Shown here: positions 27,388-62,238 of the stretch, one piece after another | How the letters are laid out: each line of letters begins with the position of its first letter | Position numbering within the stretch: position 1 is the stretch's first letter | Assembly (NCBI GenBank): GCA_028714855.1 | Contig: JAQTLP010000009.1 | Location: 1-64,000 of the forward strand | DNA: 64,000 nt | Direction of reading: 5' to 3' | From: Phycisphaerae bacterium | GTDB taxonomy: Bacteria; Planctomycetota; Phycisphaerae; Sedimentisphaerales; Anaerobacaceae | The notes under the pieces: model-generated | What the model saw: only the letters and a program-made list of their open reading frames with translations | Databases searched by the model: none | What the model was told of the DNA's origin: nothing | Position numbers and translations under genes: made by a program

Positions 27388-28149
27388 ATGAAGACAAAAC
27401 ACAGACAATCCGGTCTTTCGCTGATGGAGGAGGTGGTTGTCGTTGCAATCATAGCGATACTTGTCGTTTTCGGCCTGCCTGCCATCCGCGCGTTTACCAG
27501 GTCGGTCGAGTCCGGCGGCAGCGCAAGGGCTATGATAAGCGCGGCCCTGGCTTCAGGCCGTGCCATCGCCGCTAAAGAGCAGCACTACGCCGGCGTCAGG
27601 TTCCAAAATATTTATCAGGAAGACGGCTCCGGCTGTCAGTATATGATTTTCATCGTTTATGACTCCAATCTTCCTCGTGACAGTATGCAAGGCAATCTCG
27701 GCTGCCGGGCAGTCGAGGATTATAAGCCGATTAAGCTGCCTGATTCGGTCGGTGTGATGGATTTAATGGTTAACGATACGGAAATCAGTTCCGACCTTCA
27801 AATAGATACGCCTGCAGAGGTTAATGATACGACTACATTTTCAGTTCTTTTTTCACCATCCGGTAAACTGGTGACACACAACCTTTGGGTCAGGAATAGG
27901 GATGGAGACACCGGTAACGGCAGCAAAGATGATATCTTTAATACAGAATCTAACGTTCGAAATGGTATCGGAATGTTTGTACAGGATGAAAACGGGGAAA
28001 CGGAACAGAGCCGGAATAGTTTTATCATTTATGACAGGGCCGCATTTGAAAAGCTGGATTTGAGCAGCAGATACACTGATTATCTGGATGATTTGGCTTC
28101 GCAGGAGATTTACATAAACCCATACACAGGAACGATGATAGAAAAATAA
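27388..28149 (+). CDS. Pseudopilin 4, GspH-like
   Basis: MKTKHRQSG precedes LSLMEEVVVVAIIAILVVFG: Gly-Leu processing site and Glu at position 5. The following ARAMISAALASGRAIAAKEQ helix and the beta-rich rest (YAGVRFQ, QYMIFIVYDSNL, FSVLFSPSGKLVTHNLWVRN) match the GspH/FimT minor pseudopilin pattern. It has no calcium-loop tail. It begins 28 bases after pseudopilin 3. In type II systems GspH belongs to the tip complex with GspI, GspJ and GspK, and the genes downstream fit those slots. Confidence 0.85.
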   Translation: MKTKHRQSGLSLMEEVVVVAIIAILVVFGLPAIRAFTRSVESGGSARAMISAALASGRAIAAKEQHYAGVRFQNIYQEDGSGCQYMIFIVYDSNLPRDSMQGNLGCRAVEDYKPIKLPDSVGVMDLMVNDTEISSDLQIDTPAEVNDTTTFSVLFSPSGKLVTHNLWVRNRDGDTGNGSKDDIFNTESNVRNGIGMFVQDENGETEQSRNSFIIYDRAAFEKLDLSSRYTDYLDDLASQEIYINPYTGTMIEK

Positions 28150-28154
28150 AATTA

Positions 28155-28182
28155 GTTGTTAGTTCGTGGTTTGTAGTTCATA
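28155..28182. repeat. 7-bp repeat array, left arm (reverse orientation)
   Basis: Four consecutive heptamers, GTTGTTA, GTTCGTG, GTTTGTA and GTTCATA, i.e. reverse complements of the [TACGAAC]-type unit. The last two (28169-28182) are an exact 14-bp inverted match to 28578-28591 on the other side of the four-helix-bundle gene. Confidence 0.75.
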
Positions 28183-28201
28183 AATAAAGGTTGGGAATAC
28201 A

Positions 28202-28552
28202 ATGAGTTTTAGATTTGAAGAATTGGTGGTTTATCAAAAAACTCTGGATTTTGTTGACAAGATTTATTCGTTAACTAAAGACTACCCTCGCGATGAGATG
28301 TTTGGCTTGACGAGTCAGTTGCGAAGGGCTGCTGTTTCGATTTCTTTGAATATTGCCGAAGGTTCTGCCCGGACCAAAAAGGATTTTGGCAGGTTTATCG
28401 ATATGGCAAGAGGTTCAATTTTTGAATGTGTTGCTATATTAAAACTCTCTGTGAGGCAGAATTATATGAACCAGTTGAAATTTGAGGAGTTAGAAAAAGA
28501 CCTGGTTGAGATATCAAAAATGTTAAGTGGTTTAAAGCGTAAATTGTCTTAA
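28202..28552 (+). CDS. Four-helix-bundle protein (23S rRNA intervening-sequence/S23 family)
   Basis: 116 residues, helical throughout, with hallmarks of the S23/IVP family: FRFEELVVYQKTLDFVDKIY, YPRDEMFGLTSQLRRAAVSI, SLNIAEGSARTKKDFGRFID and the central ARGSIFECVAILKLS. These proteins were first seen encoded inside intervening sequences of 23S rRNA and are common as stand-alone genes; their biochemical role is unsettled, and related proteins (Avd) serve diversity-generating retroelements, but no reverse transcriptase is present here. It interrupts the pseudopilin series, breaking a tight operon with 52 bases before and 26 after it, and is bracketed by inverted heptamer arrays. It looks like an inserted cassette. 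Confidence 0.88.
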   Translation: MSFRFEELVVYQKTLDFVDKIYSLTKDYPRDEMFGLTSQLRRAAVSISLNIAEGSARTKKDFGRFIDMARGSIFECVAILKLSVRQNYMNQLKFEELEKDLVEISKMLSGLKRKLS

Positions 28553-28556
28553 AGGC

Positions 28557-28591
28557 TACGAACTACGAACTACGAACTATGAACTACAAAC
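28557..28591. repeat. 7-bp repeat array, right arm
   Basis: Five head-to-tail heptamers: TACGAAC three times, TATGAAC, TACAAAC. The array runs into the next gene: the ATG at 28579 and the codons for Asn, Tyr, Lys are made from repeat units four and five. Confidence 0.85.
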
Positions 28592-29364
28592 TAAGTAATT
28601 CCGGTTTTTCTCTTACTGAGGTGCTGATAGCAGTGGGGATACTGGCTGTCGGAATGGTTTTTGTGGCCGGCGTTTTTCCAGCGGGTATTTATTTAACGAC
28701 AATCGCCACTGAAAGGACCATTGCTGCGGTGGCTGCTGACGAGGCCTTTGCAAAAATAAGAATATACGCCGTAGGCGACCTTCTCGATGCAACTGATAAT
28801 GTTGACATCACCACATTGCCAACAAACTCGCTAACGGACTTCAATGATTCCACCATATTTCATGCAACATCAGGAATTACGGCTGACGAATTTCAATATC
28901 CTTCGGTCGATACGAACGAACCGAACCAGTACTGCTGGTCGGCTTTGTGTAGGCGGGTAGCGCCTGACCCTAATCAGCTCGTGCAGGTAATAGTCTTTGT
29001 GAGCAGGAAGACAGGCGGGAACCTGAAGTATCCGGACCCGAGCGATCCGCTCAACAGCATGATCTATATCGATTGGCCGAGGCCGGTCATGGTCGGTGTA
29101 ACGGGGACTGCCGGCGGTAACGAGCTGACAATCGACTCCGGCTATGAAACATTTATCAACGACGGCTATACGGTAGTCGATGACGCGACCGGCCGGATTT
29201 ATCGCGTCCTCGAGCGTTATAAACCGCCCGATGACGACACAATTCTGCTTGACATGAATTGGGATGGGACGTCTGGAGCTGGATTTGTTTGGGTGGTCCC
29301 GCCGCCGGTCGGAGGCGGCAGACGCCCCTGCATAACGGTGTATCAGAAATTAATAATTTTTTGA
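28579..29364 (+). CDS. Pseudopilin 5, GspI/PilV-like
   Basis: MNYKLSNSG then FSLTEVLIAVGILAVGMVFV: Gly-Phe processing site, Glu at position 5. The helix continues into ERTIAAVAADEAFAKIRIYA, the pattern of GspI/PilV minor pseudopilins. The body includes QYCWSALCRRV and LVQVIVFVSRKTGGN, similar to PilV-type domains, and ends in a Pro/Gly-rich segment (VVPPPVGGGRRPCITVYQKL). The start codon and first residues derive from the 7-bp repeat array, and there is no separate ribosome site, so the original N-terminus may have been replaced when the neighbouring cassette arrived. The stop lies 47 bases before the next start. Confidence 0.82.
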   Translation: MNYKLSNSGFSLTEVLIAVGILAVGMVFVAGVFPAGIYLTTIATERTIAAVAADEAFAKIRIYAVGDLLDATDNVDITTLPTNSLTDFNDSTIFHATSGITADEFQYPSVDTNEPNQYCWSALCRRVAPDPNQLVQVIVFVSRKTGGNLKYPDPSDPLNSMIYIDWPRPVMVGVTGTAGGNELTIDSGYETFINDGYTVVDDATGRIYRVLERYKPPDDDTILLDMNWDGTSGAGFVWVVPPPVGGGRRPCITVYQKLIIF

Positions 29365-29411
29365 ACTTAAAAAATAAAATCATGGTGTCTTCGTGTCTTG
29401 GTGGCAAAAAG

Positions 29412-30311
29412 ATGAAAAAGGCTTTTACTCTAATTGAGGTTGTAGTCGCTGTTGCGCTCCTGGCGGTAGTGTTTGTCTTTGCAGGCATGATTTTCAGGGT
29501 CGGCATAGAATCCTACCGCATCGCCGGCGCAAATGCGGAAATTATGCAGAAACTGCGTGCCATCACCGACCAGCTTAACGCCGACTTCAGGGGCGCAATA
29601 TCACCCCCGGGAGGAATGATACATTTTGTTTATCCCGTTGGTTATCTCGACCCAAACAGCATATCCTACATTGATAATAAATTTACTTATACCGCTGCTG
29701 ATATGGCTAATATTAAAGGTGTGAGGTCAGATAGTATCGTGTTTTTTGCAACCGGGGATTTTCAATCTACCCGTCAATATGCTTACGCCGGTTCAACTTC
29801 AGACAAAACTGTAATAGGTAATGTCGCGTGTATATTTTACGCTCTTGCAAACGTACCCACGTATAGTCTGGAGGAGAAACCTGACCCCAAAAAAAAGATA
29901 TTGATGAGAAGACAAACAATAATAATCCCGGATCCAAACTGGGTTCCGTTAGATATAAATGATTTGGGTGAATATTGTAATGCACAGTCTTTGGCTGATT
30001 TAATTGCAGATTTTGATGCTAATACCCTGACGGACGACAAGAATTTGGACCCTAATAACCCGGATGATGTAGTAAACTATATGGCTAAAGGAGTGGACGA
30101 TTTCACGATACAATATGTTGGGACTGAGTCGCCTCCGGACCTTTCTAAAAATTTTAATGACTGGCGGCCGAACAATAGCGATGTTATCGCCGGCTGGGCT
30201 GGGGAAGCATTAATTCCAATAGCCTTTAAGTTTACCTTTACGTTATACGATTCCAAGGCGATTATAAAAGAAGGCAGGAAATTTACCCATATCGTCTATG
30301 TAGGAAATTAA
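29412..30311 (+). CDS. Pseudopilin 6, GspJ-like
   Basis: MKKA then FTLIEVVVAVALLAVVFVFA gives the Ala-Phe site with Glu at position 5, followed by MIFRVGIESYRIAGANAEIM and QLNADFRGAI, as in GspJ/PilW-type minor pseudopilins, where an Asp-Phe/Arg segment follows the helix. The C-terminal half has KGVDDFTIQYVG and IPIAFKFTFTLYDSKAIIKE, also GspJ-like. ATG 29412 is used; ATG 29382 would extend by ten residues, and frames from 29259 overlap the previous gene. The bases just before the start (TGTCTTCGTGTCTTGGTGGC) resemble a sequence that recurs widely in bacterial intergenic repeats. Confidence 0.82.
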   Translation: MKKAFTLIEVVVAVALLAVVFVFAGMIFRVGIESYRIAGANAEIMQKLRAITDQLNADFRGAISPPGGMIHFVYPVGYLDPNSISYIDNKFTYTAADMANIKGVRSDSIVFFATGDFQSTRQYAYAGSTSDKTVIGNVACIFYALANVPTYSLEEKPDPKKKILMRRQTIIIPDPNWVPLDINDLGEYCNAQSLADLIADFDANTLTDDKNLDPNNPDDVVNYMAKGVDDFTIQYVGTESPPDLSKNFNDWRPNNSDVIAGWAGEALIPIAFKFTFTLYDSKAIIKEGRKFTHIVYVGN

Positions 30312-30314
30312 GAA

Positions 30315-30335
30315 GTTCATGGTTTTTAGATTATA
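30315..30335. repeat. Short heptamer array before the GspK-like gene
   Basis: Three degenerate heptamers in GTT orientation (GTTCATG, GTTTTTA, GATTATA), facing the array at 30374-30401. The pairing copies the arrangement around the four-helix-bundle gene but encloses only 38 bases. Confidence 0.45.
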
Positions 30336-30351
30336 GCATAGGGAATAAAGC

Positions 30352-32883
30352 ATGATAAAAACAGGATTCAAACTACGAACCACGAACCACGAACCACGAA
30401 CAAGGCTTGCCTCGGCCCTTATCATCGCTGTGATTTTGACCAGCCTGCTGGCCATCATCGGCATGATGTTCGTTATGATTGCGCGGGTGGACAAAATGTC
30501 GACATCGGCAATATCGCAAAACAAGGACCTTGATTCTGTTGCCGAAGCAGTTGTTGCGAAAATATCGCAGGAGTTGGTTTTAGATGTCCCGGGCGTGGCG
30601 GGGCAGGAATACTATGACTATCCCGATGCCAACAGTAATGCATGGCTGGCAAGTCTCGAACCGTACAAGTCCGGCACAAATTATTACTGGCGGCGGATAA
30701 GTGATATCTATAATAGGCTGGATGCAAATGATTTGCCGGCTGGAATCGTTCCTGATTACCAGTCAAGTATTGCTGAAGATGTTAGTGCCGATGCCGATGG
30801 TGACGGCGTGGCCGACTCAAAATGGGTCAAGCTTGATGATATAACCTCCAGCAAAGGTAAATCCATTTACGCGGCTGTCAGAATCGTTGACAACGGCGCA
30901 ATGCTGAATGTCAACACCGCTTATGAATTCGACCCGAATGCAGGGAGCTCTAATCGGATTGACGGCTCAAGTCAGACACAAATTGACCTCTTTACTTTGG
31001 CACAAAGAAGTCTTTCAAATACCATAGGTCAGCTTGATGATGCAAGATTTGGTGACGAGCCCCTTCCTCACAATTTGGACGATTACATCAGAGATGTTGT
31101 CTGGCGTTATAATGAACCAGACGGCAATTACGCGCCGTTTGATATCTCCGACGAGCTGGAGATAAGAAACAGATTTACCCTGAACCGGACCGGTGTCGAC
31201 TGCCGCCTTGAAAACTTCTGGGCCGATGCATTTAAAGGCGCAGGTTATTTGAGCACCCCAGTTACAGTAACAGCGGGTAATTACAGTGATTGGCTTGAAG
31301 AGGTACATTATGATTCGTTGGTGCCAACGGCGTATTCCTATCGGCACATCGGCACTATTTACAATATGGACCGGATTATCACCCCCGATTGTAACAAGAT
31401 GACTAATATAAATACTGCTGATGTTAATACTTTATGCGAAAGCATTCGCAGAATTCTTAGTGATGCTAATTATCCGGATGTTAATAGTGTATCCGCACAG
31501 ATAGCAGTCAATCTGATTGATTTTCGCGATAGCGATTCGAACGATATTACCGTTTATTACAATCCGGATGACGACGAGTCCTATTACGGCTTTGAGCAGC
31601 CGTGTATTTATATCTCCGAGCTGGCCCACAAATTTAAACAGGATTCGGTTGACCCCACTATTGTTTATACGTCTTATGCGATTGAGCTTTACAAGCCCTA
31701 TGCGGGGGATAGCGACCCCTGCGGTTGGCAGCTTGTGAGCGGCGGCGGTAAGATCCAGATAAATAATTGGACGGCAGGCGAGCAGTATTATGTCATACTA
31801 AATGAGGACCCTTGTGTGCCGCTTGATGTTAATACGGGAACTACCGTGCAGCCTTACTCATTTAGTTTTGCCGCAGGCGACGAAATAGAGCTGCAGCGGC
31901 CCCTTCCCGGCGGCGGCCATATTAAAGTTGATTCGAAGGTGGTCCCTGACCCCTGTGGCGGCTGGTTGGATTATTCTGGTAATCCCCGCAGTATCCAGAG
32001 GGATATTGACCGGCACAAGTGTATAAGGCGTTTGTGGGCAGGTGCCGCTGATGTGTGTACTCCGACGTTGGGCAGCTACAATAGTTATTCGAGCAGTGAC
32101 TCGAATATGATTCAGGCGCATCCCGAAAACAAACCTTTTACAAACATAGGCGAGATCGGAATGATTCTCCGCAAAAGGGCCTATCCGGATCAGTATGTCC
32201 CGTATGCGATGAACTCAAACGATACCGAAGCCACTGCGAGAGTTGATTTAGCTGACCCTAATTTCCAGAAGCTTTTTAAATATTTTACCGTCTTAGACCC
32301 TGCGGTTTACTCCTGGAACGACCCAAACGAAACAAGGGTTAAAGGTCGAATCAATATCAATACCGCACCGTGGTATGTTTTGGCGCAATTGCCCTGGGTT
32401 TCGCAGAAAAGTAGCGGCAACGACGACGCCAATCTCGCACGGGCAATCGTCGCATACAGGGACCAAGATAATCTTTTGTCTTCCGGCGGGCCTGATTATA
32501 GCGGCCGTTCTGGAGAACCGGGCTTTAGGGGTATCGGTGAGTTAAATAGGGTTGTTGCCGGCCCGGATAATTACAGTATGAATTACTACATTCTGGGTGC
32601 CGAAAGAAACATCGATTTGCCCGGTTTCCCGGATTTAACAACGCCTGCTCCAAGTTTGGGCGATGGTGCCCCTTACGATTTCGAGGAGCGCGATGTGATT
32701 TTCTCGCGGATTAGCAATCTCGTTACTGTCCGCAGTGATGTTTTCACTGCCTATATCCTCGTTCGCATCGGCCGCGACGGCCCGCAAAAGAGGGTTATGG
32801 CCATACTCGACAGAAGTAATGTCTATCCCGGCAGCGGCAAAGTCAGGGTTATTGCCATTCACCCTGTCCCCGACCCGAGATAG
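30352..32883 (+). CDS. Very large GspK-like minor pseudopilin/exported protein
   Basis: 843 residues, nearly three times a normal GspK. The N-terminal RLASALIIAVILTSLLAIIG is a GspK-like hydrophobic helix; as in GspK, there is no Glu at mature position 5, and the processing site is atypical. GspK-type features follow: SVAEAVVAKISQELVLDVPG, VRIVDNGAMLNVNTAYEF, NINTADVNTLCESIRRIL and RININTAPWYVLAQLPWVS, the 'INTA' motifs being the start of GspK's helix-hairpin-helix-like domain. Residues 1-18 (with LRTTNHEPRT) are translated from the 7-bp repeat array 30374-30401. The extra size may hold an added recognition domain. It is the last gene of the cluster; no gspD, L or M is in the window. Confidence 0.8.
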   Translation: MIKTGFKLRTTNHEPRTRLASALIIAVILTSLLAIIGMMFVMIARVDKMSTSAISQNKDLDSVAEAVVAKISQELVLDVPGVAGQEYYDYPDANSNAWLASLEPYKSGTNYYWRRISDIYNRLDANDLPAGIVPDYQSSIAEDVSADADGDGVADSKWVKLDDITSSKGKSIYAAVRIVDNGAMLNVNTAYEFDPNAGSSNRIDGSSQTQIDLFTLAQRSLSNTIGQLDDARFGDEPLPHNLDDYIRDVVWRYNEPDGNYAPFDISDELEIRNRFTLNRTGVDCRLENFWADAFKGAGYLSTPVTVTAGNYSDWLEEVHYDSLVPTAYSYRHIGTIYNMDRIITPDCNKMTNINTADVNTLCESIRRILSDANYPDVNSVSAQIAVNLIDFRDSDSNDITVYYNPDDDESYYGFEQPCIYISELAHKFKQDSVDPTIVYTSYAIELYKPYAGDSDPCGWQLVSGGGKIQINNWTAGEQYYVILNEDPCVPLDVNTGTTVQPYSFSFAAGDEIELQRPLPGGGHIKVDSKVVPDPCGGWLDYSGNPRSIQRDIDRHKCIRRLWAGAADVCTPTLGSYNSYSSSDSNMIQAHPENKPFTNIGEIGMILRKRAYPDQYVPYAMNSNDTEATARVDLADPNFQKLFKYFTVLDPAVYSWNDPNETRVKGRININTAPWYVLAQLPWVSQKSSGNDDANLARAIVAYRDQDNLLSSGGPDYSGRSGEPGFRGIGELNRVVAGPDNYSMNYYILGAERNIDLPGFPDLTTPAPSLGDGAPYDFEERDVIFSRISNLVTVRSDVFTAYILVRIGRDGPQKRVMAILDRSNVYPGSGKVRVIAIHPVPDPR
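30374..30401. repeat. 7-bp repeat array inside the GspK-like coding sequence
   Basis: TACGAAC followed by CACGAAC three times, in frame, giving the peptide LRTTNHEPRT ahead of the membrane helix. Confidence 0.85.
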
Positions 32884-59911: not shown

Positions 59912-61801
59912 ATGACTAATCTTATGGCCTGTTCACAAAACAAAATTCAAATCGCTTCGCTCCAGCTTGGTAACGGCTGGAGCGGCAGGGTGGTATTATC
60001 AGACCTTTCAAGCGGCGTAGAGTTTTCGGCAGCGGACTGGATTAAGTGCCTCTCGCAGCCGCACCTGTTGTTCGAGGACGTCTCGAAAACCATCAAAGTA
60101 GAAGGCCGCAATCGCGTCGCGATAAAAAACCTCACTATCGCAGGTACAAATCTGAAAGCGGTAATTAAACGGAGCTGGCCTGAAGATGGTTTCAGTCAGT
60201 TTTTCCGCTCGTTCCGCTCCGGCAGGGCGGTGCGAAATTTCGATACAGCTTTGACACTTCATCGCCTCGGGATTCCGGCGGTGGCCCCGCTTGCGGTCAT
60301 GCAGGAAAAGAAAGGCCCGCTTACCCGCCAGAGTATCTACATCACCCGCTATCTCGAAGAAAGCTATGACCTCCGCGACTTTTGCCGCCAGTATATATCG
60401 GAGAGGCGACTATCGTTAAGAAAGCATCTCTCCAATCAGCTCGCCTCGATACTGGCGACGCTGCACAAAAACGGTTTATGGCACAGAGACTCGAAAGCGA
60501 ATAATTTTCTCGTTACACCGCAAGGTGGGGATAAATACAAAGTTCTGCTCACCGATATGGATGGTATTAAGCCGTATCGGCTGCGGCGAGAGGCTTGCCG
60601 GTTACGTTCATTGTGGCAGCTCGCCGCGTCGCTTATGTCCATCCCCGCTGTCAGCCGGACGGATTACCTGCGATTCTTTTTAGACTATTGTAATCTTACA
60701 GATATTGCCCCTTCGCAGCGGCGGGAGATTTACCGTCAGCTTGCGGAAATGGCCAAAGCTAAATATCGCCGCTTGACGCGGAAAAATATCCTGATAATCA
60801 AGCCCAGCTCGCTGGGTGACGTGGTTATGGCGCTGCCGGCGCTTTCGGCCCTTCGCAGGAGCTTTCCCCAGGCGAAGATTAGCTGGTTTATCCGGCCGGA
60901 GTTCGCGCCGCTTATTAAAAATCACCCCGATTTAAATGAGGTAATTCTTTTTGAGCGTAAGTTCTTGGGTCGTGCGTTGTCTAATCCGCGTGCTTTTGGC
61001 GCATTGGTTGCGCTTATCTGGCGGATTAATCGCTGTAAATTCGACATAGTAATCGACCTGCAGGGCCTGTTCCGCACCGCTGCTTTTGCCTGGCTGTCGG
61101 GCTGTAAAAAGCGTTTCGGAATGGCAAACGCCGGGGAATTCGCCCATCTCTTTTACACGAATAAGATTAAACAGGATAGTGTCTGTATCCACCTTGTCGA
61201 TTACTACCTCGAAATTGTCCGCCAGGCCGGCGCTGCAAAGATAGATGTGCAATTCCTGCTGCCGGTAGATTCTGTTGCTGCTGATTCGGTCAATAGATTG
61301 CTGAAAGCAAAAGACATTAAACCTGATAATTACGCCGTTTTTGTCCCCACGTCCGCACACGAGGATAAATGCTGGCCGGTTGAGCGTTTCGCCGCTTTGG
61401 CTGATAAAATTACTAAGCAATTTCACCTCTCCATAATCGCTACCGGCTCGGCTTCCGAAAAGCCAATTGTGGAAAGGCTCAAAAATAAAGCCAATGTCCC
61501 GATAGCCAATTTCGCGGGCGTAACTTCTATCGGCGAGCTGGTTACTCTGCTCAAAGGCGCCCGGCTGGTGGTAAGCAATGATACCGGCCCGGGGCATATA
61601 GCCGCGGCTTTGGGCGTGCCGGTTGTTTTGATTTTCGGCAGGTCTAATCCCGCCCGCGTGGCCCCTTACGGCAGGCCTGATTGCGCCGCGGCCATTGAGC
61701 CGAATGGCAGGGGCTTCGAGGCCGACAGCACTGACCCGAAACACGATATTAAAGCAATAACAGTCGATGAGGTTTATCAAAAGGTATGTGAGCAGCTTTA
61801 A
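59912..61801 (+). CDS. LPS-kinase-like domain fused to a heptosyltransferase (GT9)
   Basis: 629 residues. Residues about 60-290 are a lipopolysaccharide/Kdo-kinase (WaaP/KdkA) type domain: KAVIKRSWPEDGFSQFFRSF, RLGIPAVAPLAVM, YITRYLEESYDLRDF, catalytic HRDSKANNFLV and metal-binding LLTDMDG. Residues 300-629 are an ADP-heptose:LPS heptosyltransferase-type GT9 domain: ILIIKPSSLGDVVMALPALS, DIVIDLQGLFRTA, KRFGMANAG, VPTSAHEDKCWPVERFAALA, and VVSNDTGPGHIAAALGVPVV LIFG. So one protein probably adds a heptose to the LPS core and phosphorylates it. ATG 59912 follows TTG 59885; neither has a clear ribosome site. Confidence 0.86.
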   Translation: MTNLMACSQNKIQIASLQLGNGWSGRVVLSDLSSGVEFSAADWIKCLSQPHLLFEDVSKTIKVEGRNRVAIKNLTIAGTNLKAVIKRSWPEDGFSQFFRSFRSGRAVRNFDTALTLHRLGIPAVAPLAVMQEKKGPLTRQSIYITRYLEESYDLRDFCRQYISERRLSLRKHLSNQLASILATLHKNGLWHRDSKANNFLVTPQGGDKYKVLLTDMDGIKPYRLRREACRLRSLWQLAASLMSIPAVSRTDYLRFFLDYCNLTDIAPSQRREIYRQLAEMAKAKYRRLTRKNILIIKPSSLGDVVMALPALSALRRSFPQAKISWFIRPEFAPLIKNHPDLNEVILFERKFLGRALSNPRAFGALVALIWRINRCKFDIVIDLQGLFRTAAFAWLSGCKKRFGMANAGEFAHLFYTNKIKQDSVCIHLVDYYLEIVRQAGAAKIDVQFLLPVDSVAADSVNRLLKAKDIKPDNYAVFVPTSAHEDKCWPVERFAALADKITKQFHLSIIATGSASEKPIVERLKNKANVPIANFAGVTSIGELVTLLKGARLVVSNDTGPGHIAAALGVPVVLIFGRSNPARVAPYGRPDCAAAIEPNGRGFEADSTDPKHDIKAITVDEVYQKVCEQL

Positions 61802-62238
61802 AATTGGGTTCGTTTGGGTTCGTTTTTGCGAGTTGGTAGTTCGTAGTTTTTGGTTGTTAGTAATTGTAATATCTGGAGTTATATTCATTTTGGGGGTTTT
61901 GGAAATTGGGTTCGTTTTGCATAATTTGTTGTTTTTGATTGATTGACTTTTAACCGCAGATTGCGCAGATTCACACTGATTACTTAAATAAAAGTTGCCT
62001 AAGTTAACTGTGTTTTGTTGTTTCATGTTTTTCATAATGTTTAGAATATGTCCCTTTCTTAATAGGACGAACATGCGCGTTTGATACGAAAATTATGGGG
62101 CTTTTGAGGGGTCGGTTTTGGCTAAGTCGTTATAGCAAAAGGGATAAAAAATTTTTAAAAAATGGGTTTTTGGGATGTAGGTAGCAACGTTTTTGATTGA
62201 AGTACCCTGCTCAATCGCCGCGGGGGGCTATTTATTTT
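61802..62238. repeat. Repeat-rich spacer of planctomycete dispersed-repeat type
   Basis: No gene in these 437 bases. AAATTGGGTTCGTTT occurs at 61801-61815 and 61903-61917. Heptamers in GTT orientation at 61832-61859 (GTTGGTA, GTTCGTA, GTTTTTG, GTTGTTA). Translated on the minus strand, 61830-62010 gives peptides such as LCKTNPISKTPKMN and RTQTNPIL, recalling dispersed low-complexity peptides that recur in Phycisphaerae genomes, a non-coding repeat family in my view. A segment ACCGCAGATTGCGCAGATTC (61952-61971) resembles a dispersed bacterial intergenic repeat. Confidence 0.6.

Follow-up and report, generated by a model that had tools for sequence, protein, structure and literature searches.

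Inverted arrays of locus-private 7/8-bp units around S23 genes: a probable small mobile cassette without a transposase

Introduction

Why does a lone gene for a small four-helix-bundle protein interrupt a row of pseudopilin genes, and why do short tandem repeats face each other across it? The locus lies within the window, that is, the whole 64,000-nucleotide stretch of Phycisphaerae DNA analysed here (contig JAQTLP010000009.1, positions 1 to 64,000). An S23 gene splits a co-directional pseudopilin series there, and its two neighbours (27388-28149 and 28579-29364) are in the same orientation. To our knowledge, S23 is among the commonest orphan families and has had no assigned role for three decades. 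We consider it probable that the locus belongs to a widespread type of element of ~0.4-0.45 kb, in which an S23 gene lies between inverted ends made of 7/8-bp arrays; recognition of these ends by S23, and cutting by an enzyme of the host or of another element, are inferred.

Results

An S23 gene is enclosed by an inverted pair of heptamer arrays

In a profile search, the product of the interrupting gene matched PF05635 with 119.9 bits (cut-off 33.8) and TIGR02436 with 113.4 bits (cut-off 24), and the gene is a clear member of the S23 / 23S_rRNA_IVP / four helix bundle family. The bAvd profile gave only a weak match of 34.7 bits, under its cut-off. The array to the right of the gene reads TACGAAC TACGAAC TACGAAC TATGAAC TACAAAC (period 7, score 62); the left array has four units in GTT orientation, which are more degenerate. 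Positions 28169-28182 and 28578-28591 form an exact 14-bp inverted pair. Both arrays and this exact match had been reported in the sequence-only reading and were confirmed here. The full inverted pair (30 nt, 83% complementarity) can also be read in another register of 31 nt at 81%. An inverted score of 35, that of the window locus, was reached by only 2 of 5000 random flank pairs of the same geometry. The outer limits of the cassette remain approximate because no close empty site is available for this copy.

Table 1. Coordinates of the S23 cassette and of a related array within the window.
Feature	Position	Strand	Remarks
Whole S23 cassette (left array, S23 gene, right array)	28150..28594	+	Outer limits approximate
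Left terminal array, AGTTGTT AGTTCGT GGTTTGT AGTTCAT (+ strand reading), inward-pointing	~28153..28182	-	30-nt inverted match to right array, 83%
S23 / 23S_rRNA_IVP / four helix bundle gene, 116 aa, sole gene of the cassette	28202..28552	+	PF05635, TIGR02436
Right terminal array of five TACGAAC-type units, opposite in orientation to the left array	28557..28591	+	Tandem Repeats Finder period 7, 5.4 copies
Solo TACGAAC/CACGAAC array without S23 gene, two gaps downstream in the same operon	30371..30401	+	Period-7 run score 21.5

The window contains 11 matches to TACGAACTACGAAC at up to 2 mismatches, against a mean of 0.29 in shuffles. Only two period-7 runs in the window score at least 14 (28556-28593 and 30371-30401), and no run at periods 5, 6 or 8-11 reached that score there. 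The second run is the solo array. It has no inverted partner within 30200-30450 and is read in frame within the N-terminus of the next gene; it is probably an S23-less remnant or derivative. Such arrays are an annotation trap: at 30352-30401 of the window, and in the second gap of the related loci L043 and L047, they are read as an N-terminal extension of operon proteins (MIKTGFKLRTTNHEPRTR...).

The repeat unit is private to each locus

The heptamer itself does not mark S23 genes. Across the genome, TACGAACTACGAAC (at most 2 mismatches) has 113 matches against 9 for a reversed control, most of them within a dispersed intergenic repeat, and different short units (GTGAATA, AAGAGCT, GATGAGT and others) stand beside the remaining S23 genes of this genome. 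The TACGAAC unit was therefore rejected as an S23 marker, and with it the fixed [TACGAAC]n signature that had been proposed from the window alone. When the flanks of 35 S23 loci were inspected, the right flank was the reverse complement of the locus's own left flank in nearly all, and the array unit was a degenerate tandem that differed at each locus. The general signature is the architecture and not the unit, which is private to a locus and common to its two ends.

The dispersed repeat is ~130 bp long and carries the same TACGAAC heptamers as the window cassette. One of its many genome copies lies at 61801-61933 of the window (AACCCAATTTCCGAAATGCC...TAACAACTACGAACCACGAACTATGAACT...AAACGAACCCAAACAAAGCCAATTTT), and others are at L013, L017-L025, L027 and L030-L032. 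One S23 gene with GTGAATA-type ends lies between two tRNA genes (L001, G000:C3:6336-9650). The loci L006, at the start of contig C7, and L007, at the end of C10, share the same S23 coding sequence; these contigs therefore probably join inside one S23 gene, which leaves the genome with seven S23 loci instead of eight.

Inverted array ends as a rule of S23 loci across phyla

With 92 S23 domains from the same class, each 200-bp upstream flank was aligned to the reverse-complemented 200-bp downstream flank. A score of at least 30, chosen by eye from the cross-locus distribution, was taken to indicate inverted ends. Seventy-five of the 92 loci passed (median 41), 17 fell below the threshold, and the window locus is typical of the set. 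When each left flank was paired with another locus's right flank, 139 of 8372 pairs (1.7%) scored at least 30 and the median was 16. The own right flank was the best partner among all right flanks in 68% of the loci. The 92 loci are interrelated, and the cross-locus control corrects for this only in part. Runs at lag 7 were found in 92 of 178 near flanks and 2 of 178 far flanks, and runs at lag 8 in 28 near and 2 far flanks (178 each); the periods enriched around S23 genes are 7 and 8 plus their doubles, and no others. The sequence-only reading had named arrays equally common around unrelated genes as a result that would refute it. This was not found: scores of at least 30 occurred at 0 of 25 ParE-toxin genes of the same class and, using flanks 500-700 bp away, at 1 of 89 S23 loci, and the far flanks hold only the two period-7 runs just mentioned.

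In a breadth set of 80 S23 loci, taken from named genomes of more than 15 phyla, 42 passed the same threshold, as did none of 68 far flanks; 38 of the 80 were below it, and 16 of the 80 also have direct copies. Matched inverted array ends were present in Bacteroidota, Verrucomicrobiota, Proteobacteria, candidate phyla and cyanobacterial plasmids. In cyanobacterial and Riemerella plasmid loci the arrays were visible by eye in 7 of 8 cases. Exceptions in form were L190, with both arrays in direct orientation, and L193, with little array sequence. Across many phyla, S23 genes thus follow a rule of inverted array ends. The genes themselves are frequent, occurring in 97 of 120 sampled genomes of this class with up to 13 copies each. 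They are co-directional with the downstream gene in 82 of 93 and 64 of 72 cases. A single query against phage genomes returned no S23 match.

Heptamer arrays might instead have come first, growing by slippage in intergenic DNA and trapping an S23 gene between them by recombination. Arrays without S23 do occur, both as the solo array of the window and in L040 and L042, array length varies by units, and TAACTGA heptamer sets are known from other bacteria (PMC4679880). Such growth would not explain why far flanks are nearly free of arrays (2/178), nor why orientation is not random, with 75 loci inverted and 6 in direct orientation at the same threshold among the 92; an empty plasmid site (L276, below) also lacks any array. 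We regard this origin as very improbable.

Among the loci, five (L199, L215, L223, L232 and L247) carry a third array copy, in the order array, loop, inverted array, S23, inverted array. Their similarity runs past the heptamers, which would suit either entry of S23 into an older array hairpin or copying of the right end.

Filled and empty sites on plasmids delimit the element

Plasmid collections were searched for close pairs with and without the S23 gene. At site A, the filled copy on Trichormus plasmid C (L189) reads AAAAAGTAAT, then array, S23 and array, then GTAATTAACAAATAA; the empty site in L276 reads AAAAAGTAATTAACAAATAA with no array at all. Six plasmids of 97.5-97.9% identity lack exactly 428 bp here, and the filled copy shows an unambiguous 5-bp target duplication, GTAAT. 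Since GTAAT stands on both sides of the L189 element, the ends of the element are the arrays. The same insertion in Scytonema (L278) has a left array 14 bp, or exactly two units, shorter, Nostoc C052 (L277) retains a decayed S23 at this site, and Brasilonema (L279) has the array hairpin alone. Array copy number shifts by whole units, and S23-less and decayed copies exist; genome assemblies may collapse arrays.

Site C1 is filled in L283 and L285 and empty in L195, L284, L286 and L288. A 5-bp duplication, TTCTA, is probable there, though it overlaps array-like sequence. L195 carries a different S23 gene, with GGGAAAA-type ends, at a second gap of this region. Plasmid sites that are otherwise identical thus either hold the whole array-S23-array block or lack all of it. 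The elements at sites A, C1 and F (L189, L283/L285 and L324) are homologous from the first to the last array unit, and their flanks are unrelated. Divergence or rearrangement prevented empty-site reading at sites B, D, E and F and at groES-groEL, where the intergenic region was too diverged. The empty-site junctions could not be read in Picosynechococcus 7003/7002 and Anabaena 90/Dolichospermum, and 16 bp were left unread at the junction of the Aulosira site. Precise presence or absence with target duplication is therefore met by plasmid relatives; the junction of the window copy itself could not be resolved.

With 75 of 92 loci having inverted ends, empty sites on plasmids and homology that ends at the arrays, the earlier proposal of a small mobile cassette ended by heptamer arrays gains support. 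These comparisons support S23 as the gene of a mobile cassette, although only by inference from sequence: self-copying and the enzyme have not been shown, and no transposition was observed.

Alternatively, the gene could be an immobile resident that was lost elsewhere, and the inverted arrays beside it could serve as stems for RNase III or as regulatory hairpins. The window cassette as RNA is predicted to close into one hairpin by pairing of the arrays (-129.2 kcal/mol, z = -4.56), 23S intervening sequences (IVS) are RNase III substrates (PMC4990558), and S23 genes are strongly co-directional with their neighbours, all of which suit this explanation. It leaves unexplained the 5-bp duplication, the homologous elements that occupy three unrelated plasmid sites and whose similarity stops at the arrays, and S23 in two positions of one operon (see below), and six plasmids would have had to regain the exact target on losing the insert. 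Taken alone it is largely refuted, and we judge it improbable; it may hold as an RNA-level consequence of insertion.

The window gap is filled, decayed or empty in related operons

A comparison of the locus in relatives with and without the gene, as the sequence-only reading had called for, showed filled, decayed and empty states. The gap that holds S23 in the window is filled in L043 and L050, contains a remnant with an array in L041 and an array only in L040 and L042, and holds nothing in L046, L048, L049 and others. The S23 proteins of L047 and L050 are 85% identical but are encoded in different gaps of the same operon, and the neighbouring host proteins of these two loci are just 66% identical. 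This pattern would be the expected trace of a hop within the operon, or of element exchange.

Most array units share an AG

Consensus units of 192 arrays, read inward, contain AG in 84% of cases against 57% in shuffled units, and TAG in 34% against 16%; the remaining 16% of units have no AG. Along the inward strand of these arrays G is twice as frequent as C. G is among the most constant positions within arrays, joined in 8-mers by A, and in 7-mers constancy is clearest at G. The AG rule was picked post hoc, after inspection of the arrays.

Discussion

How could such a cassette move?

The mobility of these cassettes is a puzzle to which no answer is known: there is no recognisable nuclease, and the ends differ in every copy yet match between left and right. 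S23 has no recognisable catalytic motif. Solved relatives are PDB 2gsc and 2rld, and the family is described as pentameric (Lin 2006, cited in PMC4990558). We propose that the unit of both arrays has the loose form NAGNNNN when read inward, and that the S23 pentamer may recognise the arrays, possibly with one AG-bearing unit per subunit, as single-stranded DNA or RNA; this is inferred, and there are no binding data.

TRAP is a protein that reads (G/U)AG repeats. An S23 ring reading an AG-centred unit every 7-8 nt would, as TRAP does, tolerate any bases elsewhere; only AG positions and spacing would then be held, the rest would drift, and both ends would change together. The ends of one copy might be kept alike if the arrays were remade from each other, for example while paired as a hairpin. 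Strand cutting and joining would be supplied by a host enzyme or by the enzyme of another element. In transcripts, the arrays would pair into a stem and RNase III could remove the insert, as is known for 23S rRNA intervening sequences. Operons could then tolerate such insertions, in keeping with their mostly co-directional orientation.

Two enzymes in trans were considered as general partners and rejected. A reverse transcriptase (RT) is not generally needed, as 20 genomes with at least 4 S23 copies have no RT match, among them G072 (8 copies) and G054 (9). Nor is a Y1 transposase universally needed, as S23-bearing genomes without a Y1 match exist (for example G114, with 3 copies, and G084). 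A weak positive association with Y1 was seen, with a mean of 3.7 S23 copies in genomes with Y1 and 1.1 in those without, uncorrected for genome size.

A more conventional reading is that the arrays are the ends of non-autonomous, MITE-like elements moved by an unrelated transposase in trans, with S23 as cargo or helper. In its favour, DDE transposases typically leave 5-bp duplications, array hairpins without S23 were seen (L279, L280), and S23 lacks a nuclease motif. A sequence-specific transposase, however, needs conserved ends, and here the units differ between loci even within one genome; S23 genomes without Y1 or without RT also count against it, although DDE families were outside the survey. 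We think this reading unlikely, but it keeps some weight beside recognition by S23 itself.

Family-specific ends beyond S23

The same flank statistic was met by 25 of 27 GxxExxY loci (PF13366; L329-L358) and 15 of 20 DUF559 loci (PF04480; L359-L384), both families having nuclease folds and family-specific inverted ends. Their end types are 9-bp units like ACCGCAGAGAACGCAGAG, and CCCTCTCCC/GGGAGAGGG hairpins. A GxxExxY-type start motif on both flanks was found at 17 of 27 GxxExxY loci versus 0 of 92 S23 loci. Because the end grammar is specific to each family, these look like general cassettes of a gene plus inverted ends, which argues against S23 as the passive passenger of one element. Whether there is a broad class of transposase-less cassettes, in which S23 and, separately, PDDEXK-fold GxxExxY/DUF559 proteins mobilise themselves via matched ends in a family grammar, with the IVS as its visible corner, seems to us evenly balanced. 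Its grammars would be 7/8-bp NAG arrays, 9-bp ACCNC-type arrays and CCCTCTCCC/GGGAGAGGG hairpins, and the end sequence would be otherwise free because recognition would rest on spacing, a dinucleotide and the mutual match of the ends.

GxxExxY genes are also found next to this same pseudopilin gene (G031 C127, G054 C54), and others follow groEL (G091, G108). In the next pseudopilin gap of the window, at 29385-29403, GTGTCTTCGTGTCTTGGTGGC resembles a solitary GxxExxY-type end (reverse complement GCCACCAAGACACGAAGACAC).

Scattered S23 genes

S23 cassettes were also seen within CRISPR operons (L190, L322 and L323; cas6-S23-cas4 and cmr2-S23-cmr3), and the cmr2-S23-cmr3 insertion is missing in Picosynechococcus PCC 7002. 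S23 in cas loci has been reported as an associated function (PMC3936711); these copies are more simply read as insertions. The cassette reading accounts for the scatter of S23 genes, including the copies in cas operons (PMC3936711), and it offers a likely origin of rRNA intervening sequences.

Relation to known systems

Diversity-generating retroelements (DGRs) offer a relative of the protein only. Avd has a homologous pentameric four-helix-bundle fold, as the weak bAvd match reflects, but the defining arrangement of Avd beside an RT with template and variable repeats is not met: the Avd profile is under its cut-off, the cassette has no adjacent reverse transcriptase and no such repeats, and the sole RT match in this genome is retron-like and on another contig. 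The TAACTGA heptamers of Beggiatoaceae, cyanobacteria and Bacteroidetes (PMC4679880) are likewise intergenic 7-bp arrays, in partly the same phyla, but are direct repeats of one unit, without S23 link or inverted pairing.

REP/REPIN sequences with their RAYT gene resemble the cassette in having one small gene, inverted repeats and gene-less derivatives in intergenic space. They rely on a Y1/HUH protein and one conserved palindrome per genome, whereas the cassette has private ends and is not a REPIN/RAYT system because it contains no Y1 gene. Insertion sequences and MITEs share with it terminal inverted repeats, a short target duplication and precise presence or absence. They are defined by an encoded transposase or conserved terminal inverted repeats; here S23 is the sole gene and the terminal sequence is not conserved between copies, so the cassette is neither an IS nor a MITE by the usual definition.

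Closest are the 23S IVS of the Coxiella burnetii and Leptospira type, which like the window element have an S23 ORF between inverted terminal repeats within ~430 bp. The Coxiella IVS, described as selfish and 428 nt long, carries an S23 ORF and a 28-bp terminal stem, and its mobility has been proposed but not shown; GACAGAT heptamers lie 5' of the ORF only, in strain-variable number, RNase III excises it, and S23p is apparently not expressed (PMC4990558). That heptamer contains CAG. The report makes no general statement on heptamer ends (PMC4990558). The present elements differ in that arrays stand at both ends, the unit changes from locus to locus, comparison with empty sites reveals a 5-bp duplication, and the insertions lie in protein operons and plasmids of many phyla instead of rRNA genes. 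The window element thus meets one criterion of an IVS, the S23-type ORF between inverted terminal repeats, but lies between two pseudopilin genes and, being outside rRNA, is not an IVS by definition.

The initial statement that no such element had been described therefore holds only in part: the Coxiella IVS already combines an S23 ORF, heptamers and inverted ends, and we found no prior description of heptamers or repeats near S23 outside rRNA, although coverage of subscription journals was poor and an earlier report is possible. From its architecture, the Coxiella 23S IVS looks like an element of this type that has landed in an rRNA gene. S23 cassettes would then be a new class of mobile element of which the IVS is the one partly known corner, and less new if the IVS is counted as the same.
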